The notes beneath the pieces are model-generated. The model had not been told where the DNA came from, searched no databases, and was given only the letters and a program-made list of their open reading frames with translations. From Clostridia bacterium (lineage in GTDB: Bacteria > Bacillota > Clostridia > Oscillospirales > Acutalibacteraceae): a stretch of DNA of 64,000 bases. The position numbers and the translations under genes were made by a program. Below are positions 4,145-64,000 of the stretch, piece after piece; the stretch's first letter is position 1, and each line of letters starts with the position of its first letter. The DNA lies in NCBI GenBank assembly GCA_017521925.1, contig JAFXBG010000018.1, positions 62,001-126,000 on the forward strand. Reading direction: 5' to 3'.

Positions 4145-5119
4145 ATGAAGGTATCTGTACTTGGATGCGGCCGTTGGGGCAGTTGCATTGCATGGTATTT
4201 AGATAAAATCGGCCATGAAGTATTGTCAGGAGGTCTGCCTGACGCACCTGAATTTAAACAGCTTAAAACACAGATGCACAACGATTACCTTGAGTATCCT
4301 GACTCAATTGAGGTAAGCAGTGACCTTGAATACTCTGTTAAGCGTGCTGAGGTTATAGTTATTTCTATCTCCGCACAGCATTTAAGAGAATATATGGCAG
4401 ATATTGCAAAGTATGACCTTAAGGGTAAAACCATTGTGCTTTGTATGAAGGGTGTTGAGGTTACTACAGGTAAGAGACTTACCGAAGTTGTAGGAGAATT
4501 TATTAATAAAGACGAAACCAATGTTGCTGTCTGGGTTGGCCCCGGCCATCCTCAGGATTATGTTAAGGGTGTACCTAACTGTATGGTTATTGACAGTAAC
4601 AATGATGCTACCAAAGAAATGCTTGTTAACGAGTTTTCCAGTTCTCTTATCAGAATGTACATAGGTACTGACCTGATTGGCAGTGAAATAGGTGCTGCTG
4701 CAAAAAATGTTATAGGAATTGTTGCAGGCATGCTTGACGGTCTTGGATATCAGTCACTTAAGGGTGCGTTGATGGCAAGAGGTGCTCATGAAATTTCAAG
4801 GCTTATCGGAAAGCTGGGCGGTAATCCCTTATCAGCATATGGTCTTTGTCATTTAGGTGATTATGAAGCTACTCTGTTCTCTAAATGGAGTCACAACAGA
4901 ATGTATGGCGAAGCTTATGTTAATGGAAACAAGTTTGAAAAACTTGCTGAGGGTGTTATGACCACCAAGGCACTTGTTAAGCTTTCAGAAGAAAAGAATG
5001 TTGATATGCCTATTGTTAAAGCTTGTTACAACGTATTATTTGAAGATAAAAAGGTTGAAGATGCTATTGATGAGCTTTTTGACCGCAAGGTAAAGAGAGA
5101 ATTTAAAATTAAAAAGTAA
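4145..5119 (+). CDS. gpsA: NAD(P)-dependent glycerol-3-phosphate dehydrogenase
   Basis: Makes sn-glycerol 3-phosphate from dihydroxyacetone phosphate for phospholipid synthesis, in the cytoplasm. At 324 residues it is of normal length. Residues 7-12 (G-C-G-R-W-G) form the Rossmann nucleotide loop, Lys102 in the C-M-K-G-V-E motif lies in the active site, and the catalytic lysine is Lys187 in G-A-A-A-K-N-V-I-G-I. An oddity is V-W-V-G-P-G-H-P where most GpsA proteins have a G-P-S-F/N-type motif; it therefore belongs to a divergent branch. It follows the presumed 6S RNA and ends at a strong bidirectional terminator. Confidence 0.88.
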   Translation: MKVSVLGCGRWGSCIAWYLDKIGHEVLSGGLPDAPEFKQLKTQMHNDYLEYPDSIEVSSDLEYSVKRAEVIVISISAQHLREYMADIAKYDLKGKTIVLCMKGVEVTTGKRLTEVVGEFINKDETNVAVWVGPGHPQDYVKGVPNCMVIDSNNDATKEMLVNEFSSSLIRMYIGTDLIGSEIGAAAKNVIGIVAGMLDGLGYQSLKGALMARGAHEISRLIGKLGGNPLSAYGLCHLGDYEATLFSKWSHNRMYGEAYVNGNKFEKLAEGVMTTKALVKLSEEKNVDMPIVKACYNVLFEDKKVEDAIDELFDRKVKREFKIKK

Positions 5120-5124
5120 CAGAA

Positions 5125-5160
5125 AAAGAGGTTGATTCATACTGATGAATCAACCTCTTT
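5125..5160. terminator. Bidirectional terminator between gpsA and the C39-like protease
   Basis: A perfect 16-base inverted repeat, 5125-5140 against 5145-5160, with a four-base loop. It is flanked by an A-run on one side and a T-rich stretch on the other. It lies between the two convergent genes and can stop transcription from both. Confidence 0.9.
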
Positions 5161-5164
5161 ATTA

Positions 5165-6236: not shown

Positions 6237-7229
6237 TTAAATATCTGCAAGAGTAGCGGCAATTACAGCCTTGATAGTATGCATACGATTTTCAGCCTCT
6301 TTGAAAACTATTGACTTTTCGCTTTCAAACACGGAGTCAGTAACCTCAAGAGCATCAAGTCCGAACTTCTCGCCTACTTCCTTACCTACTGTTGTTTCAA
6401 GATTATGGAATGCAGGCAGGCAATGCATAAATACAGTTGTATCCTTTGCATTTGACATAAGCTCGTCATTTACCTGATAAGGAAGAAGCTCGTCAATACG
6501 CTCTTTCCAAACATCTGTAGGTTCACCCATAGAAACCCATACATCGGTATAGATAACATCGGCGTTTTCTACAGCCTTTTTGGGGTCTGTTTCAAACTTA
6601 AGAGTTGCACCTGTTTCTTTAGCGATAGCTTCGCACTCAGCGATTAAAGCTTTGTCAGGAAAATATTTTTCGGGAGCGCAGGCTGTAAAGTTAAGTCCCA
6701 TTTTAGCACAGCCTACCATAAGAGAATTACCCATATTAAAGCGAGCGTCACCCATATAAACAAAGTTGATACCTTTAAGATAGCCAAACTGCTCTTTAAT
6801 GGTTAAGAAATCTGCAAGAATCTGCGTAGGATGGAACTCATCGGTAAGGCCGTTGTATACAGGGACACCTGCGTACTTACCCAGAGCCTCAACAGTTTCC
6901 TGGCCAAAACCACGGTACTCGATAGCATCGTAAATGCCGCCAAGTACACGTGCTGTATCGGCAATAGATTCTTTCTTGCCCATCTGTGAACCTGTAGGGT
7001 CAAGATATGTAACATTCATACCTAAATCGTAAGCGGCAACCTCGAAGCTACAGCGTGTACGGGTACTTGTTTTTTCGAAGATAAGAGCAATATTTTTGCC
7101 CTCGCAAAGTCTGTGCTTTGTGCCACTCTTTTTCTCAGCTTTAAGCTTTGCGGCTAAATCTATAAGATAATTAATTTCTTCGGGAGTAAAATCAAGAAGC
7201 TTTAAGAAGCTTTTACCTTTAAGGTTCAT
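6237..7229 (-). CDS. argF: Ornithine carbamoyltransferase
   Basis: Joins ornithine and carbamoyl phosphate to give citrulline, step six of arginine synthesis, in the cytoplasm. At 330 residues it is full length. Residues 55-59 (S-T-R-T-R) bind carbamoyl phosphate and residues 269-273 (H-C-L-P-A) bind ornithine; D-V-W-V-S-M-G-E near residue 230 is the SMG loop that closes on ornithine. It is the last gene of the arg operon, three bases after argD, and is followed by a terminator. Being coded with argGHCJBD argues for biosynthesis rather than the catabolic arginine deiminase route. Confidence 0.95.
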
Positions 7230-7232
7230 TAT

Positions 7233-8408
7233 TTACACACCTTTCGCTATATTTGTTTTAATAATTTCAACTGCCTTTTTGAGGTCTTCCATAGGAATAT
7301 TAAGAGCAGGCAGAAGTCTGACTTTGTTCTTTGCTTTAATTACAAGAACACCGTCATTCATACAGTCAGCAATAATATCGGAAGCATCACGCTCAGTTTC
7401 AATACCGAGCATAAGACCCATACCGCTGATGCTTTTAACACCTTTTGCACCTTTGAGCTCATTAATAATATAATCTGATTTTATACGAACTTCTGAGAGA
7501 AGTTTGTCGTCAATTCGCTCAAGGATATTTAAAGCACCTGCCGAGGCTACCGGGTTTCCGCCAAAGGTAGAGCCGTGATCGCCTGATTTCATTGCTTCAG
7601 CTACCTTTTCAGAAAATACAGTGGCACCTATAGGAAGACCGCCGCCAAGACCTTTGGCAGTTGTGAAAATATCAGGAGTGAAGCCGTAGTTCATAAATGA
7701 GTAAAGCTCGCCCGTTCTGCCGTTGCCTGTCTGGACTTCGTCACAGATTATAAGGAAGCCGTACTCCTTTGAAAGCTCAACGATTTTGTCAATAAACTCT
7801 TTATCAAGAGGAAGCACTCCGCCTTCACCCTGGACACACTCAAACATTACAGCAAAGGGTTTAAGCTCTTTTACGTTATTTTCAAGTGCTTTGATATCGT
7901 TAGCGGGTGTATGTTCGAAGCCTTCTACAAGAGGTTTGAAATCCTTATGAAAAACATCCTGCCCTGTAGCAGAAATTGTAGCAATAGTTCTGCCGTGGAA
8001 AGAATTTACCAAAGTAAGCATAACTGAGTTAAGCTGAGGTAAATTTTCTGCCGCATATTTTCTGGCGGCTTTTATTGCACACTCGTTAGCTTCTGCACCT
8101 GAGTTTGAGAAGAAAACCTTGCTCATACTTGTTCTTTCGCAAAGAGCTTTTGCAAGCTTTGCACAAGGCTCAGAGTAATAAAGGTTTGATGTGTGCTGTA
8201 AAGTATTAAGCTGAGCTGTTACAGCATTCGCCCACTCTTCGTCGGCAATACCAAAAATATTAACTGCTATACCTGAGCCCAAGTCGATATATTCCTTACC
8301 CTCATCGTCGTAAACCTTGGAGCCTTTGCCCTTTGTGAGAGTAAGAGGAAACCGTGAGTATGTTCCCATAATATACTCACGGTCTAAAGCTTTAACATTC
8401 ATAGTCAT
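7233..8408 (-). CDS. argD: Acetylornithine aminotransferase
   Basis: PLP enzyme that transfers an amino group from glutamate to N-acetylglutamate semialdehyde, making N-acetylornithine. It is 391 residues of class III aminotransferase. Lys252 in T-A-K-G-L-G-G-G-L-P binds PLP, I-C-D-E-V-Q-T-G-N-G-R-T-G carries the cofactor Asp, and G-S-T-F-G-G-N-P lies in the substrate-entry region. It overlaps the end of argB by 17 bases if translation begins at the first ATG (8408); a second ATG two codons on (8402) is equally reachable from the GGAGG site, so the exact start is open. Cytoplasmic. Confidence 0.94.
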   Translation of the reverse strand: MTMNVKALDREYIMGTYSRFPLTLTKGKGSKVYDDEGKEYIDLGSGIAVNIFGIADEEWANAVTAQLNTLQHTSNLYYSEPCAKLAKALCERTSMSKVFFSNSGAEANECAIKAARKYAAENLPQLNSVMLTLVNSFHGRTIATISATGQDVFHKDFKPLVEGFEHTPANDIKALENNVKELKPFAVMFECVQGEGGVLPLDKEFIDKIVELSKEYGFLIICDEVQTGNGRTGELYSFMNYGFTPDIFTTAKGLGGGLPIGATVFSEKVAEAMKSGDHGSTFGGNPVASAGALNILERIDDKLLSEVRIKSDYIINELKGAKGVKSISGMGLMLGIETERDASDIIADCMNDGVLVIKAKNKVRLLPALNIPMEDLKKAVEIIKTNIAKGV

Positions 8409-9276
8409 AATTAAAATCCTCCGCTACCATTGTACCTGCACCTTCGTCAGTGAGAGTTTCGATAAGAAGAGAATGTTCTACCCTACCGTCCATAATAATA
8501 ACCCTGTTGACGCCCATGTCGATTGCTTCTAAACAGCACTGAACCTTAGGAATCATACCGTCGGAGATTGTACCGTCTTCAATAAGCTTGCGGATACCTA
8601 CTGTGTCGATGTGTGAGATAAGAGATGAGGGGTCATTCTTATCCATTAAGATACCAGCAATATCGGTCATGGTAATAAGACGCTCGGCATTAAGCTTACC
8701 TGCAATAAATGCGGCAGCAGTGTCGGCATTGATATTATAAACATTGCCCTGATTGTCACAGCCAACTGTGGAAACAACAGGGATATAGCCTTTTTCCAAT
8801 AAGTCTTCAATTGGTTCTACATTTACATCGGTGATTCTGCCTACAAAACCAAGTCTTTCGTCCTTTACCTCGGCTTTAATCATCTGGCCGTCTATACCTG
8901 AGATACCCATTGCCTTGCCGCCTTTTGTCTGGAGAAGGTTTACAAGGCTTTTGTTAATTTTACCGGCAAGCACCATTTGCACGATTTCGGCAGTTTCTTT
9001 ATCTGTTACTCTTAGGCCGTCTACCCACTGGGTTTCCTTGCCTACAGCCTTTAAGGTATCGGTAATTTCAGGGCCGCCGCCGTGAACGAGGACAACCTTG
9101 ATACCGATAAGCCAAAGAAGAACTAAATCCTGCATAACCTGCTGTTTAAGTTCTTCGCTTACCATTGCATTGCCGCCGTATTTTATAACGATAATCTTAC
9201 CGTTATACATTCTTATGTAGGGTAAAGACTGAATTAAAACTTCAGCTCTTAGAGCATTTGAAATTTCCATAGACAT
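8392..9276 (-). CDS. argB: Acetylglutamate kinase
   Basis: Phosphorylates N-acetylglutamate, the second step of arginine synthesis. It is 294 residues of the amino-acid kinase fold. The phosphate-binding K-Y-G-G-N-A-M lies near residue 30, V-H-G-G-G-P-E near residue 61, and the N-I-N-A-D-T-A-A-A ATP/substrate segment near residue 178. The ATG at 9276 was chosen because an AGGTGA site lies five bases before it; the GTG at 9285 is part of that site. This enzyme is often feedback-inhibited by arginine; the N-terminal helix used for that (L-R-A-E-V-L-I-Q-S-L-P-Y) is present, so feedback control is likely but not shown. Confidence 0.94.
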   Translation of the reverse strand: MSMEISNALRAEVLIQSLPYIRMYNGKIIVIKYGGNAMVSEELKQQVMQDLVLLWLIGIKVVLVHGGGPEITDTLKAVGKETQWVDGLRVTDKETAEIVQMVLAGKINKSLVNLLQTKGGKAMGISGIDGQMIKAEVKDERLGFVGRITDVNVEPIEDLLEKGYIPVVSTVGCDNQGNVYNINADTAAAFIAGKLNAERLITMTDIAGILMDKNDPSSLISHIDTVGIRKLIEDGTISDGMIPKVQCCLEAIDMGVNRVIIMDGRVEHSLLIETLTDEGAGTMVAEDFNYDYEC

Positions 9277-53184: not shown

Positions 53185-54663
53185 TTATAGAATTATACAA
53201 ATAAGACCATTACATCCGTCGTTGATAATTTTCTCGACAGTTTCTGAAAGCTTCCGACGGGCATCCTGAGGCATTCGGTAAAGCTTATTGTTTAGGCCCT
53301 CGCTTACAAGCTGATGAACAGATTTTCCGAAAATATCGGATTGCCAGATTCTTACGGGGTCTTCCTCAAATTCTGAGAGCAGGAATTTGACAAGTTCCTC
53401 AGACTGTTGCTCACTACCTACAATGGGAGTAACCTCGGCAGCGGTTTCTATCCGCATAAGATGCACAGAAGGTGCCGTTGCCTTGAGCTTTACGCCGTAT
53501 TTACCGCTTTGTTTTATTATTTTGGGTTCTTCTAAAGTGAGCTCTTCCATTGTTGGCATAACAATACCGTAGCCTGATTCAAGAACTTCGTCATAAGCCT
53601 TTGCAATCCGCTCAAATTTCTGCTGTTTGCGGCTCATTTCTGAAAAACGAGCTAAAAGTGCCCGTTCATCAGGCAAATCAAGGCCTGTTTGCTCTGAAAG
53701 AACCTTAAAGAATAGTTCTGAACTGATGCCGATTTTCAGCTTTGCCTCTCCCCTGCCCAAATCAAGACCTGCAAGCTCAGCTGATGAAATATACTCGTTA
53801 TTAATCAGAACATCGCAGATTTCATGGACCTGTCTGATTTTTTCGATTTTTCCCGCAGTTTCTTTGATTGAAGAAAACACACTTTGCTTTATGGGATGAT
53901 TGTGTTCAAGAGATACTACCCATGTAGGAATATCCACCTTGATTTCACGGATAGGAAACTCAAACAGTATCTGTGCCAGAATACGTTTGATTTCGGTTTC
54001 GTCAAGGTCTTCGCAGGATGTAGGAATTACGGGCACCTGATATTCTGAAGACATTTCTGAGGAAAGATTCTGTACGGATTCATCTGAAGGGTCTATAGTA
54101 TTAAGAAGAATTATAAAAGGCTTGCCTAAAGCCTTAAGTTCTTCTATCACACGTTTTTCGGCATCTATATATTCCGTACGGCTTATATCGGTAACCGAGC
54201 CATCTGTAGTAATTACAAGACCTATGGTACTATGGTCTTCGATAACCTTACGGGTGCCGAATTCGGCGGCTTTGTCAAAAGGCACCTCTGTATCAAACCA
54301 AGGGGTTTTTACCATACGAGGAGCCTCGTCCTCCATATACCCCAGTGCCTCGTTAACAATGTAGCCAACACAATCTATAAGGCGAACCTTTAAACTAACA
54401 TTATCTGCAAGGGAAATTTCAGCCGCCTGTTCAGGGATGAATTTCGGCTCTGTTGTCATTATAGTTCTGCCGCCTGCTGACTGCGGAAGCTCATCCTGAG
54501 CCCGTTCGCGTTTATATTCATCGGCTATATTGGGGATAACCAGATTATCCATAAACCGCTTTGTAAAAGTAGATTTACCTGTTCTGACAGGACCTACCAC
54601 ACCAATGTAGATATCGCCACCTGTACGCTCAGCAATATCTTTATATATATTTCTTTGTTGCAC
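53185..54663 (-). CDS. spoIVA: Stage IV sporulation protein A (coat morphogenetic ATPase)
   Basis: A 492-residue ATPase that polymerises on the mother-cell side of the outer forespore membrane and forms the base of the spore coat. Walker A G-P-V-R-T-G-K-S-T-F is at about residues 24-33, with I-D-C-V-G-Y-I-V-N as the Walker B/switch-like motif near residue 116. The middle and C-terminal domains are complete, ending N-D-G-C-N-G-L-I-C-I-I-L, close to the usual membrane-anchoring end. The start is GTG at 54663 after GGAGG. It lies next to the SipL-like gene. Confidence 0.97.
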   Translation of the reverse strand: MQQRNIYKDIAERTGGDIYIGVVGPVRTGKSTFTKRFMDNLVIPNIADEYKRERAQDELPQSAGGRTIMTTEPKFIPEQAAEISLADNVSLKVRLIDCVGYIVNEALGYMEDEAPRMVKTPWFDTEVPFDKAAEFGTRKVIEDHSTIGLVITTDGSVTDISRTEYIDAEKRVIEELKALGKPFIILLNTIDPSDESVQNLSSEMSSEYQVPVIPTSCEDLDETEIKRILAQILFEFPIREIKVDIPTWVVSLEHNHPIKQSVFSSIKETAGKIEKIRQVHEICDVLINNEYISSAELAGLDLGRGEAKLKIGISSELFFKVLSEQTGLDLPDERALLARFSEMSRKQQKFERIAKAYDEVLESGYGIVMPTMEELTLEEPKIIKQSGKYGVKLKATAPSVHLMRIETAAEVTPIVGSEQQSEELVKFLLSEFEEDPVRIWQSDIFGKSVHQLVSEGLNNKLYRMPQDARRKLSETVEKIINDGCNGLICIIL

Positions 54664-59599: not shown

Positions 59600-60979
59600 T
59601 TATTCACTCATATAAATGGTAACAGCGGAAGTTAAACGCTGAACGAACTTATTTGTTGTTATTTTATCATTGAGATAATCGTTGATAATGTCCCCTATTA
59701 CATTCTGATAAAGATGGGACTTAAGCTGAGAATTATAGCCGTAAAGATTACAGGAGGATATGTTTTCTATCATAGGCAGATACTCCTCTGTTACGGCTTT
59801 ATTCTTCGCTTCTAAGGTAGCTTCATCAAAGCTGTAACCCCACCAGAAGCGCTCAAAATTAACAGCCTCGTTTACCGCACTGTCAAAAACCGAATTTTTT
59901 ACAGGCAAAGCCAATCCAAAGGAGTTGGTGTCTTCTCTGCCGCCGCCAAAATAACCCTGAGAAGAATCGCTTAATAAATATTCAATAAGCTTTGCCGCCT
60001 TGTCCATTTTTTGGCAGTTGGCATTTATAGCAAAACCTACCTCTATACTTGCAGTGATTTCTCCGTTACGATTATAGTCAGGTATAAGCATTGGGGGGTC
60101 CTGACCATACTCCAAGGCAGAAAGGTAATCAAGAGCATAAGTGGTTAAGGAGCCGCCATAGTAGTTGTTTTCATTGGCTGAAAAAATATATGCTGAACTA
60201 TCTTCAGGTTCACGCCAGTTTTCACTTACTACAGGTTCATAGTTAAGAAGCTCCGCATAACTGTCGCCGTTAAGTATTGCATATTTAAAATCCTCAGCTA
60301 AGTTATAAAACTCCTCACTGTCAAAATCCGCAGTACCCTCATAAAAGTCTATATACTGACGAATAAATGAAAAGAAAAATGTTTCTGCAGAATAGGGGTT
60401 AATAAGATAAGCGTTAATTTTATTATTTTTATAAGCCTCTAAAACAGATTGAAAGGTGAAGTCATCAGGGTCAATCCCAAAACCAGCAAGCTTATCTTTA
60501 GTGGTGTATAGTGCGTTCAGACGATAATACAAAGGTAATATCATACGCTTGCCGTCAACAACTCCGCTATCCATTACATTTTTATTGAAATCGTCAAAAT
60601 CCACGTCGGCATCATAAGTGCTGACAATTTCGTCGATATCGGCAAGAGAATTGTTTCGTACAAGCTTTTCGAAAGGATAGGTTTGAGTAATAGACATAAT
60701 ATCAGGGCCACCGCCTGCCATAAGCTCGGTAGCAAGAGCTGAGTTCATTTCGTTATAGCTTTCAAAAGATATAAACTCAACACTATCTTCAAAATTATCT
60801 TTAACGGCACAGTATTTATTGTATTTTTTTAAAAATTCGTAAAGCTCATCACCACCCTCACCCACACAGTAAAATGTAAGCTTATCGCTGTCGGTAGCTT
60901 GCAACGCATCGCAGGCAGACATGAGCGGACAAATAAAAAGTATTGAAACCAGCAATAAAGAAACTATCTTATTTTTCAT
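59600..60979 (-). CDS. Extracellular sugar-binding lipoprotein (family 1), copy 1
   Basis: A 459-residue solute-binding lipoprotein. The signal peptide ends L-M-S-A-C (Cys23). After it come L-T-F-Y-C-V-G-E-G-G, M-A-G-G-G-P-D-I-M-S-I-T-Q near residue 87 and S-G-V-V-D-G-K-R-M-I-L-P-L-Y-Y, the pattern of family 1 binding proteins of CUT1 transporters, then a P-D-Y-N-R-N-G-E-I-T-A segment. It is a clear paralogue of the next gene: the motifs S-A-C, M-A-G-x-G-P-D, M-D-S-G-V-x-D-G-K-R and G-G-R-E occur in both in the same order. The ligand is unknown. Confidence 0.92.
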   Translation of the reverse strand: MKNKIVSLLLVSILFICPLMSACDALQATDSDKLTFYCVGEGGDELYEFLKKYNKYCAVKDNFEDSVEFISFESYNEMNSALATELMAGGGPDIMSITQTYPFEKLVRNNSLADIDEIVSTYDADVDFDDFNKNVMDSGVVDGKRMILPLYYRLNALYTTKDKLAGFGIDPDDFTFQSVLEAYKNNKINAYLINPYSAETFFFSFIRQYIDFYEGTADFDSEEFYNLAEDFKYAILNGDSYAELLNYEPVVSENWREPEDSSAYIFSANENNYYGGSLTTYALDYLSALEYGQDPPMLIPDYNRNGEITASIEVGFAINANCQKMDKAAKLIEYLLSDSSQGYFGGGREDTNSFGLALPVKNSVFDSAVNEAVNFERFWWGYSFDEATLEAKNKAVTEEYLPMIENISSCNLYGYNSQLKSHLYQNVIGDIINDYLNDKITTNKFVQRLTSAVTIYMSE

Positions 60980-61025
60980 ACAAAGACCTACTTTTCGGGA
61001 TTTAGAGCTTCACGAAAATTTATTA

Positions 61026-62432
61026 TTACTCATTAAGATACATATTAACCGAATTTGTCAGGCGGTTAATAAAAATATCAAGAGTGATCTCGCCTTTGAA
61101 ATAACTGTCTATGGGAGATTTAAGCACATTTTTAGATATATGGGTGCTCGTTATTCCTTCAAAATCATATAAAGAGCACGTTGTAATATCCTCTAACAGC
61201 GGACGGTAGTACTCACTTAAGGCTTGGTTTTTCTTTTCAATAAGCTCATGGGAAACTGTAACCTTTCCTGATTCATTATAATACTCATCCACCTCATATT
61301 CAAGAGCATTTTTGTAGGAAGCTTCGTAAACTTCAAGATTAACAGGAAGCCATGAACCGCCGCTGGTAGATTCAGGGTCACCTTCTCTGCCGCCGCAATA
61401 ATAACTCTGAGAATCAAAGCCTAACATATACTCAATAAGCTTTATTACCTTATCATACTTCTTACAGTTCGAGCTGAACATAAGACCAAACTCGACAGTT
61501 GCCGAAAGCTTATCTTCCCTATTAAAATTCGGATAAAATATTTTTGTGCTATGGGAAGATTTTTCTATACTATCCTCCAATATGTAATTTGAACTTCTGA
61601 GATACGACCTTGCAAAAGCTCCGAAAGAACCTGCATTAAAACCGTTTTCAAAACTATCAAACAGATATTCACGATTTGTTTCGCTTGAAAATTCATAGTC
61701 ATAAAAATCGCTGTAGGAGTCCCCTACCAGAGCCTTACGGAATGCTTCTGCAAGATTTCTGAACTCGTCAGTATCAAATTCAGTGATGCCATTATGTATA
61801 TCAATATACTGATTTACAAAAGAGTAAAAGAAGTTATCACCAAAACCCGGGTGCACAAGGTAGCAATCAAGTTTACCTTGGTTTATATCTTCGCACAAAG
61901 TTTCAAAAGTAACTCCCTCTAAATCTGCACCAAGATAATCAAGGCGTGAGTTGGAGGTGACAAGAAAATCAGGGCTATAGTAGAGAGGCAGAATATAACG
62001 TTTGCCGTCAAAAACTCCACTGTCCATAACCACTTTATTTAAATTATCAAAGCTGAAGTCTGGGTTCAGCGAATTTATAACCTCATTCAAATCAAGGAGA
62101 TTATTATTTTTAATTAGTTTTTCTATGGGAAGATTCTGGCTTAATGCAAGTACATCAGGACCTTTTCCTGCCATAAGCTCTGTACCAAGCTTTGCTTCGT
62201 ATTCTTCATAGGAATCAAAATAAATAAATTCTACAGAATCTTCTTCTCTGTCGTTTACATTACAGTAAGCGTTGTATTTTTTGAGAAAACGAACCAGTAT
62301 ATCATCCTCGTTAATCGCATAAACCGTAAGGCGGTCAGAGCTGCTATCTGAAACCGAATTCGTACAAGCGGACAGTAGTGGGCAAAGCAAAATGATTAAT
62401 GCTAAATTTAATGATAAAACTCTCTTTTTCAT
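61026..62432 (-). CDS. Extracellular sugar-binding lipoprotein (family 1), copy 2
   Basis: A 468-residue paralogue of the preceding protein and the first gene of the operon. Its lipobox is L-L-S-A-C (about Cys22), followed by T-N-S-V-S-D. It shows L-T-V-Y-A-I-N-E-D-D, M-A-G-K-G-P-D-V-L-A-L-S-Q, M-D-S-G-V-F-D-G-K-R-Y-I-L-P-L-Y-Y and P-N-F-N-R-E-D-K-L. GAGGTG precedes the ATG. Two binding proteins serving one permease pair suggests two related ligands. The promoter carries a repeated operator. Confidence 0.92.
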   Translation of the reverse strand: MKKRVLSLNLALIILLCPLLSACTNSVSDSSSDRLTVYAINEDDILVRFLKKYNAYCNVNDREEDSVEFIYFDSYEEYEAKLGTELMAGKGPDVLALSQNLPIEKLIKNNNLLDLNEVINSLNPDFSFDNLNKVVMDSGVFDGKRYILPLYYSPDFLVTSNSRLDYLGADLEGVTFETLCEDINQGKLDCYLVHPGFGDNFFYSFVNQYIDIHNGITEFDTDEFRNLAEAFRKALVGDSYSDFYDYEFSSETNREYLFDSFENGFNAGSFGAFARSYLRSSNYILEDSIEKSSHSTKIFYPNFNREDKLSATVEFGLMFSSNCKKYDKVIKLIEYMLGFDSQSYYCGGREGDPESTSGGSWLPVNLEVYEASYKNALEYEVDEYYNESGKVTVSHELIEKKNQALSEYYRPLLEDITTCSLYDFEGITSTHISKNVLKSPIDSYFKGEITLDIFINRLTNSVNMYLNE

Positions 62433-62516: not shown

Positions 62517-62524
62517 TTGCATAA

Positions 62525-62556
62525 ATAAAAATAACCGCCTGCAAATGCAAGCGGTT
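62525..62556 (-). terminator. Terminator of cotJC
   Basis: On the minus strand, 11 bases after the cotJC stop, a ten-base stem (62556-62547 with 62542-62533, one G-U pair) with loop ATTT is followed by ATTTTTATTT. It is intact although the gene is interrupted. Confidence 0.85.
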
Positions 62557-62567
62557 TAATAGATTTA

Positions 62568-62795
62568 TCAGATTTTTCCTTTATCGAAACACTTTTTGTC
62601 AAAAGCGGGGTTGAAGGCATAAAAGTTTTTGCTGTCGAGCTTATCGGTAAGGATTCTTAAATTCTCGCCGAATCGCTGATAATGCACAACTTCGCGCTCT
62701 CTTAAAAATCGGATGGGGTCAATTACATCAGGGTCGTCACAAAATCTGAGAATATTATCATAGGTGACCCTTGCTTTCTGCTCCCCGTAGACCAC
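62568..62795 (-). pseudogene. cotJC: 3' part of interrupted cotJC (spore-coat manganese catalase)
   Basis: The last 71 or so codons of a CotJC-type manganese catalase. E-Q-K-A-R-V-T-Y-D-N, D-D-P-D-V-I-D-P-I-R-F-L-R-E-R-E-V-V-H and Q-R-F-G-E-N-L-R are the C-terminal family motifs, with metal-ligand Glu and His residues among them; the tail D-S-K-N-F-Y-A-F-N-P-A-F-D is also known from clostridial CotJC. Full-length CotJC is about 190-200 residues. Upstream of Glu the expected A-A-E-Q-K-A-R is replaced by V-Y-G-E-Q-K-A-R, and an in-frame TAG follows three codons before the open GTG. There is no ribosome site. The remnant ends intact, with terminator. Confidence 0.85.
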
Positions 62796-62813
62796 TAAAG
62801 ACTACTTAGCCTG
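62772..62813 (-). other. Predicted attachment-site half at the cotJC/element junction
   Basis: The boundary between cotJC coding sequence and foreign sequence lies close to the codons for G-E-Q-K-A (62786-62772), inferred from where similarity to the family stops. The recombinase stop codon (62816-62814) is only about 30 bases away. A large serine recombinase would recombine within a two-base core of a site spanning this point. The exact core cannot be set without the other end. Confidence 0.5.
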
Positions 62814-64000
62814 CTAAAAATTCCAGTGAATTACTAATATTCTATCATTTTTTGTGCCGCCGATTTCGATGAAATCGATGAGTTTGTCAACGGTAGTTCT
62901 GTCGAGCTTTTTTATGTTTTTTAACTCCCGAATAAGTGCGTCTGCTCTTGTTTCATCATTTAATTTCCTGTCTATCTCACAAATATCTTTTTTGTAAGAT
63001 GATATAAGGGTTTCAAGCTTTTCTTTATCTTTGTTAAACTCAGAAAAAAAGAGCTTGTAATCCTCAGAAGAAATAACACCATCCAGCTTATCCAAATAAA
63101 GCTGTTTAAATTTACTCTGATATGACGCTAACTCCCTCTCGGCTTTTTCAAGGCAACCATACAGATGCTTGCGGGTGTTTTGAAGCCCGTTCGAAACTTT
63201 AATGTTCTTCGAGGCTTCCTTCTCGTTAACAAATTTTTCGAATAGCCCATGGATTCTTTCAAGAACTATTCTTTCTAAAACCGAATGAGAAATATATACT
63301 CCTTGAGAGCAACGGTTTCTTGCAAATTGATTTTTAGTGCAACGATAATATTTCTGATGCTTATTTATCCAGCTTCTCATAGAACCGCCGCAATTTTTAC
63401 ACCTCAATTTATTTGCAAAGACTCCTATCTCCCCCGTTTTATTGCTTCGGGGTTTAGAGGCTTTCAAAGCCTGAACATCATCCCAGAGCTTTGTATCAAT
63501 TATAGGCTCGTGGGTGTTTTCTACAATATCCCATTGGCTCTCAGGCTTCTGACGCTTCTTTTTGGATTTATAGTTTATATTCTCAACCTTACCCTGCACT
63601 GTATGACCGATGTAAACGGGATTAGCAAGAATACCTGAAACAGTTGAGGGAATCCATGTGTCACTGCACTCGCCATGCACACACTGAAAGGATTGACCAT
63701 GCTCCTTCTTATAGGTTGCAGGATTGGGAATATTCTCAGCATTGAGCCTTTGTGCGATACTGTTTATACCTACGCCTTGATGATAAAGCTTATAAATATA
63801 CCTAACGATGTCGGCGGCTTCTTCATCGATTATCAGATGATTCTTGTTGTCTGGGTCTTTTATGTAACCAAAAGGTGCAAAAGCACCAACCCATTGACCC
63901 ATACGCCTTTTTGATGACAGGGTTTTCTTGATGTTTTCAGATAAATCTTCCAGATACCACTGGTCAACCAATGAATTTATCTGTCTTGATTTCTTATTGC
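62787..64000. mobile_element. Left end of a recombinase-bearing element inserted in cotJC
   Basis: Everything right of the junction in cotJC belongs to an inserted element that continues beyond the window. Only its recombinase gene is visible. Its size, type (prophage, integrative element or skin-like element) and other cargo cannot be seen. The orientation puts the recombinase 3' end against the 3' half of cotJC. Confidence 0.75.
62814..64000 (-). CDS. Large serine recombinase (N-terminus outside the window)
   Basis: About 395 C-terminal residues of a large serine (resolvase/invertase-type) recombinase; the catalytic serine domain lies beyond the right edge. Seen are S-R-Q-I-N-S-L-V-D-Q-W-Y-L-E-D-L, the end of the linking helix; the recombinase domain with G-A-F-A-P-F-G-Y and G-I-N-S-I-A-Q-R-L-N-A-E; S-G-I-L-A-N-P-V-Y-I-G; a zinc ribbon C-K-N-C-G-G...C-T-K...C; and a long coiled coil (E-R-E-L-A-S-Y-Q-S-K-F-K-Q) that controls direction in such enzymes. 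It ends with T-K-N-D-R-I-L-V-I-H-W-N-F. The frame stays open to base 64000. Confidence 0.93.
   Translation of the reverse strand, partial: NKKSRQINSLVDQWYLEDLSENIKKTLSSKRRMGQWVGAFAPFGYIKDPDNKNHLIIDEEAADIVRYIYKLYHQGVGINSIAQRLNAENIPNPATYKKEHGQSFQCVHGECSDTWIPSTVSGILANPVYIGHTVQGKVENINYKSKKKRQKPESQWDIVENTHEPIIDTKLWDDVQALKASKPRSNKTGEIGVFANKLRCKNCGGSMRSWINKHQKYYRCTKNQFARNRCSQGVYISHSVLERIVLERIHGLFEKFVNEKEASKNIKVSNGLQNTRKHLYGCLEKAERELASYQSKFKQLYLDKLDGVISSEDYKLFFSEFNKDKEKLETLISSYKKDICEIDRKLNDETRADALIRELKNIKKLDRTTVDKLIDFIEIGGTKNDRILVIHWNF

Follow-up and report, generated by a model that had tools for sequence, protein, structure and literature searches.

A metabolic-gene island with a serine recombinase appears to split the coat gene cotJC of a Clostridia bacterium and may be excised in the mother cell

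In the genome of a gut Clostridia bacterium of the Acutalibacteraceae (GenBank assembly GCA_017521925.1; 1.41 Mb in 22 contigs, 72.6% complete, in the following G000), the coat gene cotJC is divided into two halves, and the 3' half adjoins the gene of a large serine recombinase. The explanation that we regard as probable, with some confidence, is that an integrating island resides in cotJC and would be excised in the mother cell to restore the gene, while the forespore would keep the island. The recombinase of the island would have integrated at the GA of the Glu codon in DLAA/EQKAR (cut at the slash), thereby splitting cotJC into a 5' half on contig C2 and a 3' half with the recombinase gene beside it in the window, by which we mean the whole stretch of 64,000 nucleotides that was analysed (contig JAFXBG010000018.1, here C18, positions 62001-126000). 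If C2 and C18 bound one interval, the at least 39 kb between the halves carry genes for branched-chain amino acids (ilv) and thiamine (thi). Insertion and restorability can be read from the DNA itself. In the mother cell, the recombinase together with a directionality factor would then recombine attL with attR, release the block and restore cotJC; we infer this excision because of the geometry of the locus, because both halves appear to be under selection in two lineage pairs, and because of the promoter layout in a sister clade of recombinases. The relevant features are the following (window positions unless a contig is given):

62568..62783, minus strand: cotJC 3' half, last 71 codons from E-Q-K-A-R to the stop (sequence reading and Pfam)
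62782..62783, minus strand: GA, 2-bp overlap with the 5' junction, predicted crossover core (junction comparison)
62784..62815, minus strand: attR arm on the recombinase side, forming an inverted repeat with the arm after the C2 5' half at 18 of 32 positions
62814..64000 and on to C18:126367, minus strand: large serine recombinase of 517 aa, 3' part in the window (ORF and domains)
about 62522..62556, minus strand: hairpin and T-run 3' of the cotJC stop, terminator-like (by eye)
53185..54663, minus strand: spoIVA-type gene, 492 aa, about 8 kb beyond the cotJC 3' half, sporulation context (ORF comparison and profile search)
C2:33950-34378, minus strand: cotJC 5' half, on another contig of G000

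The right end of the window thus consists, in minus-strand order, of the recombinase, 30 bases, the cotJC 3' half and a terminator-like hairpin, with the stop codon of the recombinase at 62814. The 3' half is part of an open frame of 62568-62795 (minus strand), has its Glu codon GAG at 62783-62781 and matches positions 150-199 of Mn_catalase in Pfam, and the recombinase contains the Pfam domains Resolvase, Recombinase and Zn_ribbon_recom that characterize large serine recombinases. As gene-intervening elements do, the island interrupts the coding region of a sporulation gene and has its own recombinase beside the attachment site. Directly downstream of the 3' half, at 59600-62432 (minus strand), there are two tandem paralogous solute-binding-type lipoproteins and two ABC permease-type ORFs. 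A second serine-recombinase-like ORF of G000 is found outside the interval at C2:60385-61929 (minus strand).

PF05067 has two matches in G000, namely the 3' piece of the window and a 5' piece at C2:33902-34378 (minus strand), and this search found no second intact cotJC in the 72.6% complete genome. Upstream of the C2 5' half, cotJA- and cotJB-type ORFs can be recognised by eye, and in other loci, too, cotJC has a cluster of relatives of these two ORFs next to it. The 5' half ends with ...DPIADLHEDLAA, followed by DE and a stop codon (DLHEDLAA/DE-stop), the 3' half enters at EQKAR, and neither half shows a frameshift or an internal stop. The sole bases that both junctions have in common are GA, with which the Glu codon starts; as judged from sequence, they would constitute a 2-bp core. 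Large serine recombinases use such a 2-bp core. Each of the 24 distinct usable pairs from one genome has GA on its 5' side, the 3' side being anchored on GAR by script (31 pairs were built and 29 parsed, three duplicates and two wrong-motif anchors were dropped, and the same 24 served for the arm test). When the halves are joined at GA in silico, the paired attachment sites restore the gene in frame, and the resulting full-length CotJC covers positions 1-200 of the family HMM with 389 bits, compared to 407-421 bits for the 11 intact genes from which the HMM was built.

The arms pair at 18 of 32 positions, whereas shuffles reach 10.9 +/- 1.8 and only 6 of 4800 shuffles reach 18, and the mean over the 24 pairs is 18.4 for own and 14.9 for crossed arms; the G000 5' arm with the 3' arm of G177 gives 19, slightly above its own 18, which was counted against the main reading. 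Because the arms pair above shuffles, it is most likely that C2 and C18 contain opposite ends of a single element. The G000 halves are situated well inside separate contigs, and their orientation and distance within G000 are not directly visible. An earlier reading of the window, made from its sequence only, had proposed a recombinase-bearing insert in cotJC, and the 5' half and its in-frame joint bear this out. The 71-codon end starting in E-Q-K-A-R, at 30 bases from a same-strand serine recombinase stop, is directly readable, and so is the stop that this reading had assigned to the fragment, while the terminator agrees with a hairpin and T-run recognised by eye. A second intact cotJC, named there as contrary evidence, did not turn up in the genome at its given completeness. 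The reading had further expected the 5' half at the far end of the element with a core of a few bases: this half exists, with the shared GA and a matching arm, but on the other contig, so that the absence of a 5' half from the same contig, which had been named as speaking against the split, is formally the case, yet the half on C2 has a matching attachment arm.

The same split recurs among relatives. Within the genus, a full-length recombinase with at least 46% identity is encoded in 18 of 161 genomes, G000 included, and the next ones reach at most 37%, except for a partial copy in G151 (67% over 202 aa) that has no cotJC piece in its locus. In 17 of these 18, a cotJC piece cut at the same site lies within 180 bases of the recombinase, and in G238 it lies 2 kb away. 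Among named genomes, fetched stretches around the best 80 of at least 554 relatives contain a cotJC piece cut at this site in 76 cases and no such piece in four (L170, L171, L225, L231); since 76 of the 80 are cut at the same place, the split beside the recombinase is not a matter of chance. The hosts of this split (site 135) include MAGs of Oscillospiraceae and Lachnospiraceae as well as isolates, for example Longicatena caecimuris DSM 29481, whose contig displays the split, Roseburia faecis M72 and Anaerotignum lactatifermentans DSM 14214, in both of which the 5' half and the recombinase were recognised, Thomasclavelia cocleata DSM 1551 and Agathobaculum butyriciproducens DSM 100391. Next to other recombinases, there are cotJC pieces cut near codons 30 (n=9), 63 (n=8) and 180 (n=1), and in a further gene, in L031, the cotJC match ends at codon 180 beside a recombinase-like ORF. 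In a recombinase tree of 47 rows, the 23 site-135 rows form one side of a branch with support 99, and the site labels change 6 times, as compared to 22.1 times when shuffled; with several long branches at other sites, we are unsure about the number of origins of cotJC-site use.

In all 33 same-contig pairs (20, 8 and 5 at sites 135, 30 and 63), the halves are in order and on one strand, at a spacing of 2.3-14.4 kb, with wider spans of about 38 and 60 kb in G158 and G127. These two genomes and G244 (L134) have, among the matches listed, a three-piece cotJC on one contig; the split genes compiled for the genus are best matches and define no genus-wide fraction. In L087 (G182 C1:84000-95000), an intact cotJC at 8026-8631 (minus strand) is accompanied about 3 kb downstream by an extra 3' half at 4955-5161 (minus strand), cut at the same codon and perhaps the remnant of an insertion that carried its own 3' end. 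L088 (G167 C97:1-9000) has two cotJC 3' halves with this cut, at 1612-1815 and 6520-6723 (plus strand), about 4.7 kb apart, which suggests tandem insertions.

In two lineage pairs whose DNA aligns through the joint, both halves appear to be under purifying selection, which we count in favour of a restored cotJC. Together, they show 24 synonymous changes over 132.8 sites and, in this small sample, 2 non-synonymous changes over 449.2 sites, where about 81 would be expected without selection. L177 and L194 align over most of the interval and also in the flanks at 93-95%; L185 and L186 are 96% identical over 8.5 kb that begin 0.75 kb ahead of the recombinase, comprise the latter and the 3' half and reach into the flank, and the rest of the interval is not aligned. 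This two-pair total replaced a total of three pairs. Between G000 and the sister species G228, the 3' half differs by 31 synonymous and 1 non-synonymous changes, but with a dS of 0.25 for the recombinase versus 1.2 or saturation for cotJC the recombinase is younger than the host split, and this pair is therefore unusable for the test. Two broader tallies were set aside, as a shared insertion cannot be concluded from a recombinase that predates the split of its hosts: dN/dS over all site-135 3' halves (median 0.063 in 39 usable pairs versus 0.098 in the same part of intact genes), and a looser filter that flagged 30 of 34 pairs as vertical, with 13 independent pairs, 222 synonymous changes over 664 sites and 275 non-synonymous over 2288.

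As regards the control of excision, the sister clade of recombinases is informative. A conserved ORF of 42-61 aa turned up in 78 copies, always at most 400 nt upstream of a serine recombinase and on the same strand, in loci mostly centred on recombinases. It accompanies 77 of the 80 sister-clade recombinases (440-560 bits), and of the three without it two are truncated by the end of their contig, while the third is a piece of the G228 gene itself. The encoded protein is a candidate excision factor. The motif CATANNNT, which is the -10 box of sigmaE/sigmaK, is present upstream of the small ORF in 58 of 65 cases (shuffle 11.5, maximum 21), compared to TATAAT in 4 of 65, while between small ORF and recombinase TATAAT occurs in 30 of 65 (shuffle 5.9) and CATANNNT in 9 of 65, which is background. 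In the cluster representatives of the small ORF, CATANNNT is present in 37 of 43 (shuffle 6.3, maximum 14), and ATA-N17-CATANNNT in 28 of the 43, every other spacing from 12 to 23 being found in at most 3. Upstream of the cotJ operon, CATANNNT is likewise found, in 36 of the 48 loci (shuffle 6.5, maximum 14) whose cotJA could be located among 84 upstream regions. A mother-cell box directly before the recombinases as a whole was considered and rejected: CATANNNT occurs there in 12 of 81 regions and is not enriched (shuffle 13.7), whereas TATAAT is (42 of 81, shuffle 9.1). As far as such boxes indicate promoters, the combination of a vegetative-type promoter for the recombinase and a mother-cell-type promoter for the small ORF supports regulated excision in the sister clade.

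The small ORF is present in none of the 27 loci of the window's subclade, and its HMM has no match in C2, C18 or G228 C30. As for an excision factor of this subclade, no convincing candidate common to the loci emerged when the small ORFs of 24 interval pieces were clustered; G000 and G228 do have in common an ORF of 38 aa (C18:126713-126829) that lies upstream of the recombinase, but it was also dropped and is unmatched by the sister-clade HMM. As the small protein is missing from the window's subclade, we can for G000 only infer excision in sporulation. Upstream of the window recombinase there are a TATAAT and, at a distance of 27 nt from the start codon, an ATA-N18-CATANNNT box. No other box of this kind in C18:124814-131724 is followed by an ORF, and four such boxes are present in the approximately 194 kb scanned; no box of this type precedes the recombinase of G228. 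Near site-63 cotJC pieces, L210, L182, L206 and L230 share a conserved ORF of 61-82 aa, possibly another partner protein. SpoIVA was found in all 11 genomes searched, G000 included; a sigmaK model gave no match over the cut-off in these 11 genomes, nor in the B. subtilis control.

Could the island be a plain parasite, for which cotJC would be nothing but a convenient, dispensable attB that is lost as long as the element resides there, with an ICE- or phage-like excision that serves transfer only? The recombinase does move between species, its dS being 0.02-0.3 in hosts with far more diverged cotJC, and the vegetative-type box upstream of the recombinases as well as the lack of the small ORF in the window's subclade would fit such a life style. 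Relatives of the recombinase reside in ICE-like and phage-like contigs, with ICE-like genes recognised by eye around L168 (Roseburia faecis) and L237 and phage-like genes in L234. However, purifying selection on both halves in the two lineage pairs, the mother-cell-type promoter of the sister-clade small ORF, and the G000 halves without any visible frameshift or stop argue against a mere parasite, and we regard this alternative as possible but rather unlikely. As to mobile elements in general, L168 and L237, the latter a viral-collection contig, have by eye Tn916-like conjugation genes beside the cotJC-targeting recombinase, 6 of 15 loci from the viral collection contain a cotJC piece, and 21 annotated phage records have a match at E <= 1e-40, with identities of 27-39% among the 15 matches listed.

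In G000, the interval comprises 33.9 kb after the 5' half on C2 and 5.4 kb before the recombinase on C18, the sum being a lower limit if the contigs meet. It encodes ilvA, ridA, ilvBHCD, thiFGHE, ABC transporters, lipoproteins, acetyltransferases and an rsgA-type GTPase (PALP/ilvA, ilvC, thiG, rsgA, GNAT and kinase assigned by Pfam, the rest by eye), and in the assembled parts (C2:1-33.9 kb, C18:126.4-131.7 kb) no phage structural genes and thus no prophage-like content were recognised by eye. In G228, whose recombinase is 94% identical, thi, ABC and ilv genes in the same orientation precede the recombinase and the cotJC 3' half on one contig; the interval there also has leu and fab/acc genes, and a kinase and one acetyltransferase are placed differently in the order. 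Orthologs of G000 and G228 (C30 and the first 54 kb of C25; unmatched genes, such as those at C2:22.8-33.5 kb and 0.7-6.1 kb, uncounted) have a dS of 0.15-0.48 inside the interval, apart from one acetyltransferase with 1.04 whose best match is on another contig, whereas outside dS is 0.22-2.27 on C2 (median 1.28) and 0.37 to saturated on C18. A one-sided rank test of 19 of the 21 interval rows (two doubtful overlapping ORFs dropped) against the 16 outside rows, all from C2 and none from C18, gives p = 8e-6. Because dS inside is far below that of the flanking chromosome, the block seems to be a transferred island that was exchanged after the hosts had split. The term skin-like, as used in the sequence-only reading, is appropriate for a position inside a sporulation gene that can be restored in silico, but not for the content, which as far as assembled is a large block of metabolic genes shared horizontally with G228 and not a prophage.

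As for the cargo of other intervals, in G244 the site-135 interval contains panBCD-coaBC and the recombinase, and the site-30 interval contains pnp and rpsO, the latter being the only S15 gene found in that genome (88% complete). A fab/acc operon lies inside the cotJC interval of G228 (C30:43796-51450, L128); fabF, which is present in this interval, was nevertheless rejected as essential cargo, as it was not found in G000, G223 and G216, and fatty-acid synthesis genes may be patchy in the genus. In G216, DNA that is 95% identical to the rsgA/acetyltransferase stretch of the G000 interval lies outside, downstream of the cotJC 3' half (C28:493-3417, L150), and the locus has therefore been rearranged between species.

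That gene order at the locus differs between G000, G228 and G216, and that the G000 halves are on different contigs, both well inside, would also be expected from a decayed or rearranged remnant, i.e. an old insertion whose halves have drifted apart and can no longer be joined, or from a binning or assembly error. Against this stand the open halves with arms that still pair, the orientation of thi and ilv genes relative to the recombinase on one contig of G228, which is as expected if C2 and C18 bound one direct interval, and the same layout on single contigs elsewhere, including the one-contig assemblies G007 and G054. We consider a remnant or an artefact to be improbable. As 15 of 27 distinct 3' halves lack an in-frame start codon and the ribosome-binding sites of the remaining 12 are poor (0-4 nt of match to Shine-Dalgarno versus 4-8 nt at 81 cotJC starts), the 3' half is, judged by these signals, without a usable start, and it is very unlikely that separately translated halves assemble into a working catalase, even though both halves stay open and selection on them would be expected in this case as well.

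With the excisable island as preferred explanation, the recombinase is in principle able to cut out the block and to rejoin cotJC. The case suggests how islands of core metabolism can live in a gene that is needed only by the dying mother cell. In gut Oscillospiraceae, Lachnospiraceae and further groups, among them strains in culture, one coat gene, cotJC, seems to be hit repeatedly, and the candidate excision factor and the promoter layout make mother-cell control directly testable. We are evenly divided on a more general view, according to which cotJC would be a docking gene of gut spore-formers at large that is used by several serine-recombinase lineages, each with its own in-frame site. 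Elements would stack in one copy, as with three pieces on one contig, and the cargo would not have to be mobile DNA but could consist of normal chromosomal genes, such as the S15 gene of which no second copy was found in one genome, as excision would be confined to the dying mother cell; the sister clade would employ a new, small, mother-cell-expressed excision factor.

How does this compare to known systems? Programmed excision during sporulation is described, in the portions of the literature on which we draw, for sigK, spsM, spoVFB, spoVR, gerE and yabG, and sporulation sigma factors control the RDFs of both SP-beta and the skin element of C. difficile (PMC5595907, PMC4191935). Among the matches listed from the PMC literature, none describes cotJC as a gene that is interrupted and later restored, and Durrant et al. 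name no cotJ target in the parts of their main text considered here (PMC10083194). The nearest precedent that we came across is phi027 of C. difficile, an integrated prophage whose attR is immediately followed by a CotJC-like gene, but in the passages concerned this gene is described as a 678-bp ORF beside attR and not as a split gene (PMC11222575, PMC12122855). SP-beta in spsM of B. subtilis, with SprA and SprB, is similar in that a serine recombinase and att sites split a mother-cell gene, and its layout is that of the sister clade, where the small protein, but not the neighbouring recombinase, has a promoter of mother-cell type; it differs in the target gene, no phage genes were recognised in the assembled G000 interval, and excision from cotJC is so far only what we propose (PMC4191935). 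The sigK skin elements of B. subtilis and C. difficile resemble the cotJC case by a recombinase beside the broken gene and an expected in-frame restoration, whereas cotJC encodes a coat enzyme and not a sigma factor, the cargo is large and metabolic, and several sites are used in one gene (PMC4191935, PMC5025042). Like the cotJC island, yin in yabG of C. botulinum is a serine-recombinase element in a sporulation gene of a member of the Clostridia, but it is a prophage and its excision has been observed, and in both respects the cotJC island differs (PMC10747680). Finally, gin in gerE of B. cereus, with GirC and GirX, is comparable to the cotJC island in its size of tens of kb, its non-phage nature, its serine recombinase and its position in a mother-cell gene; gin has three recombinase genes and a tested RDF, while G000 has one recombinase at the joint and no RDF identified, and the published account of gin, as far as drawn on here, shows that prophage-like content is not required for a sporulation gene-intervening element (PMC5595907).
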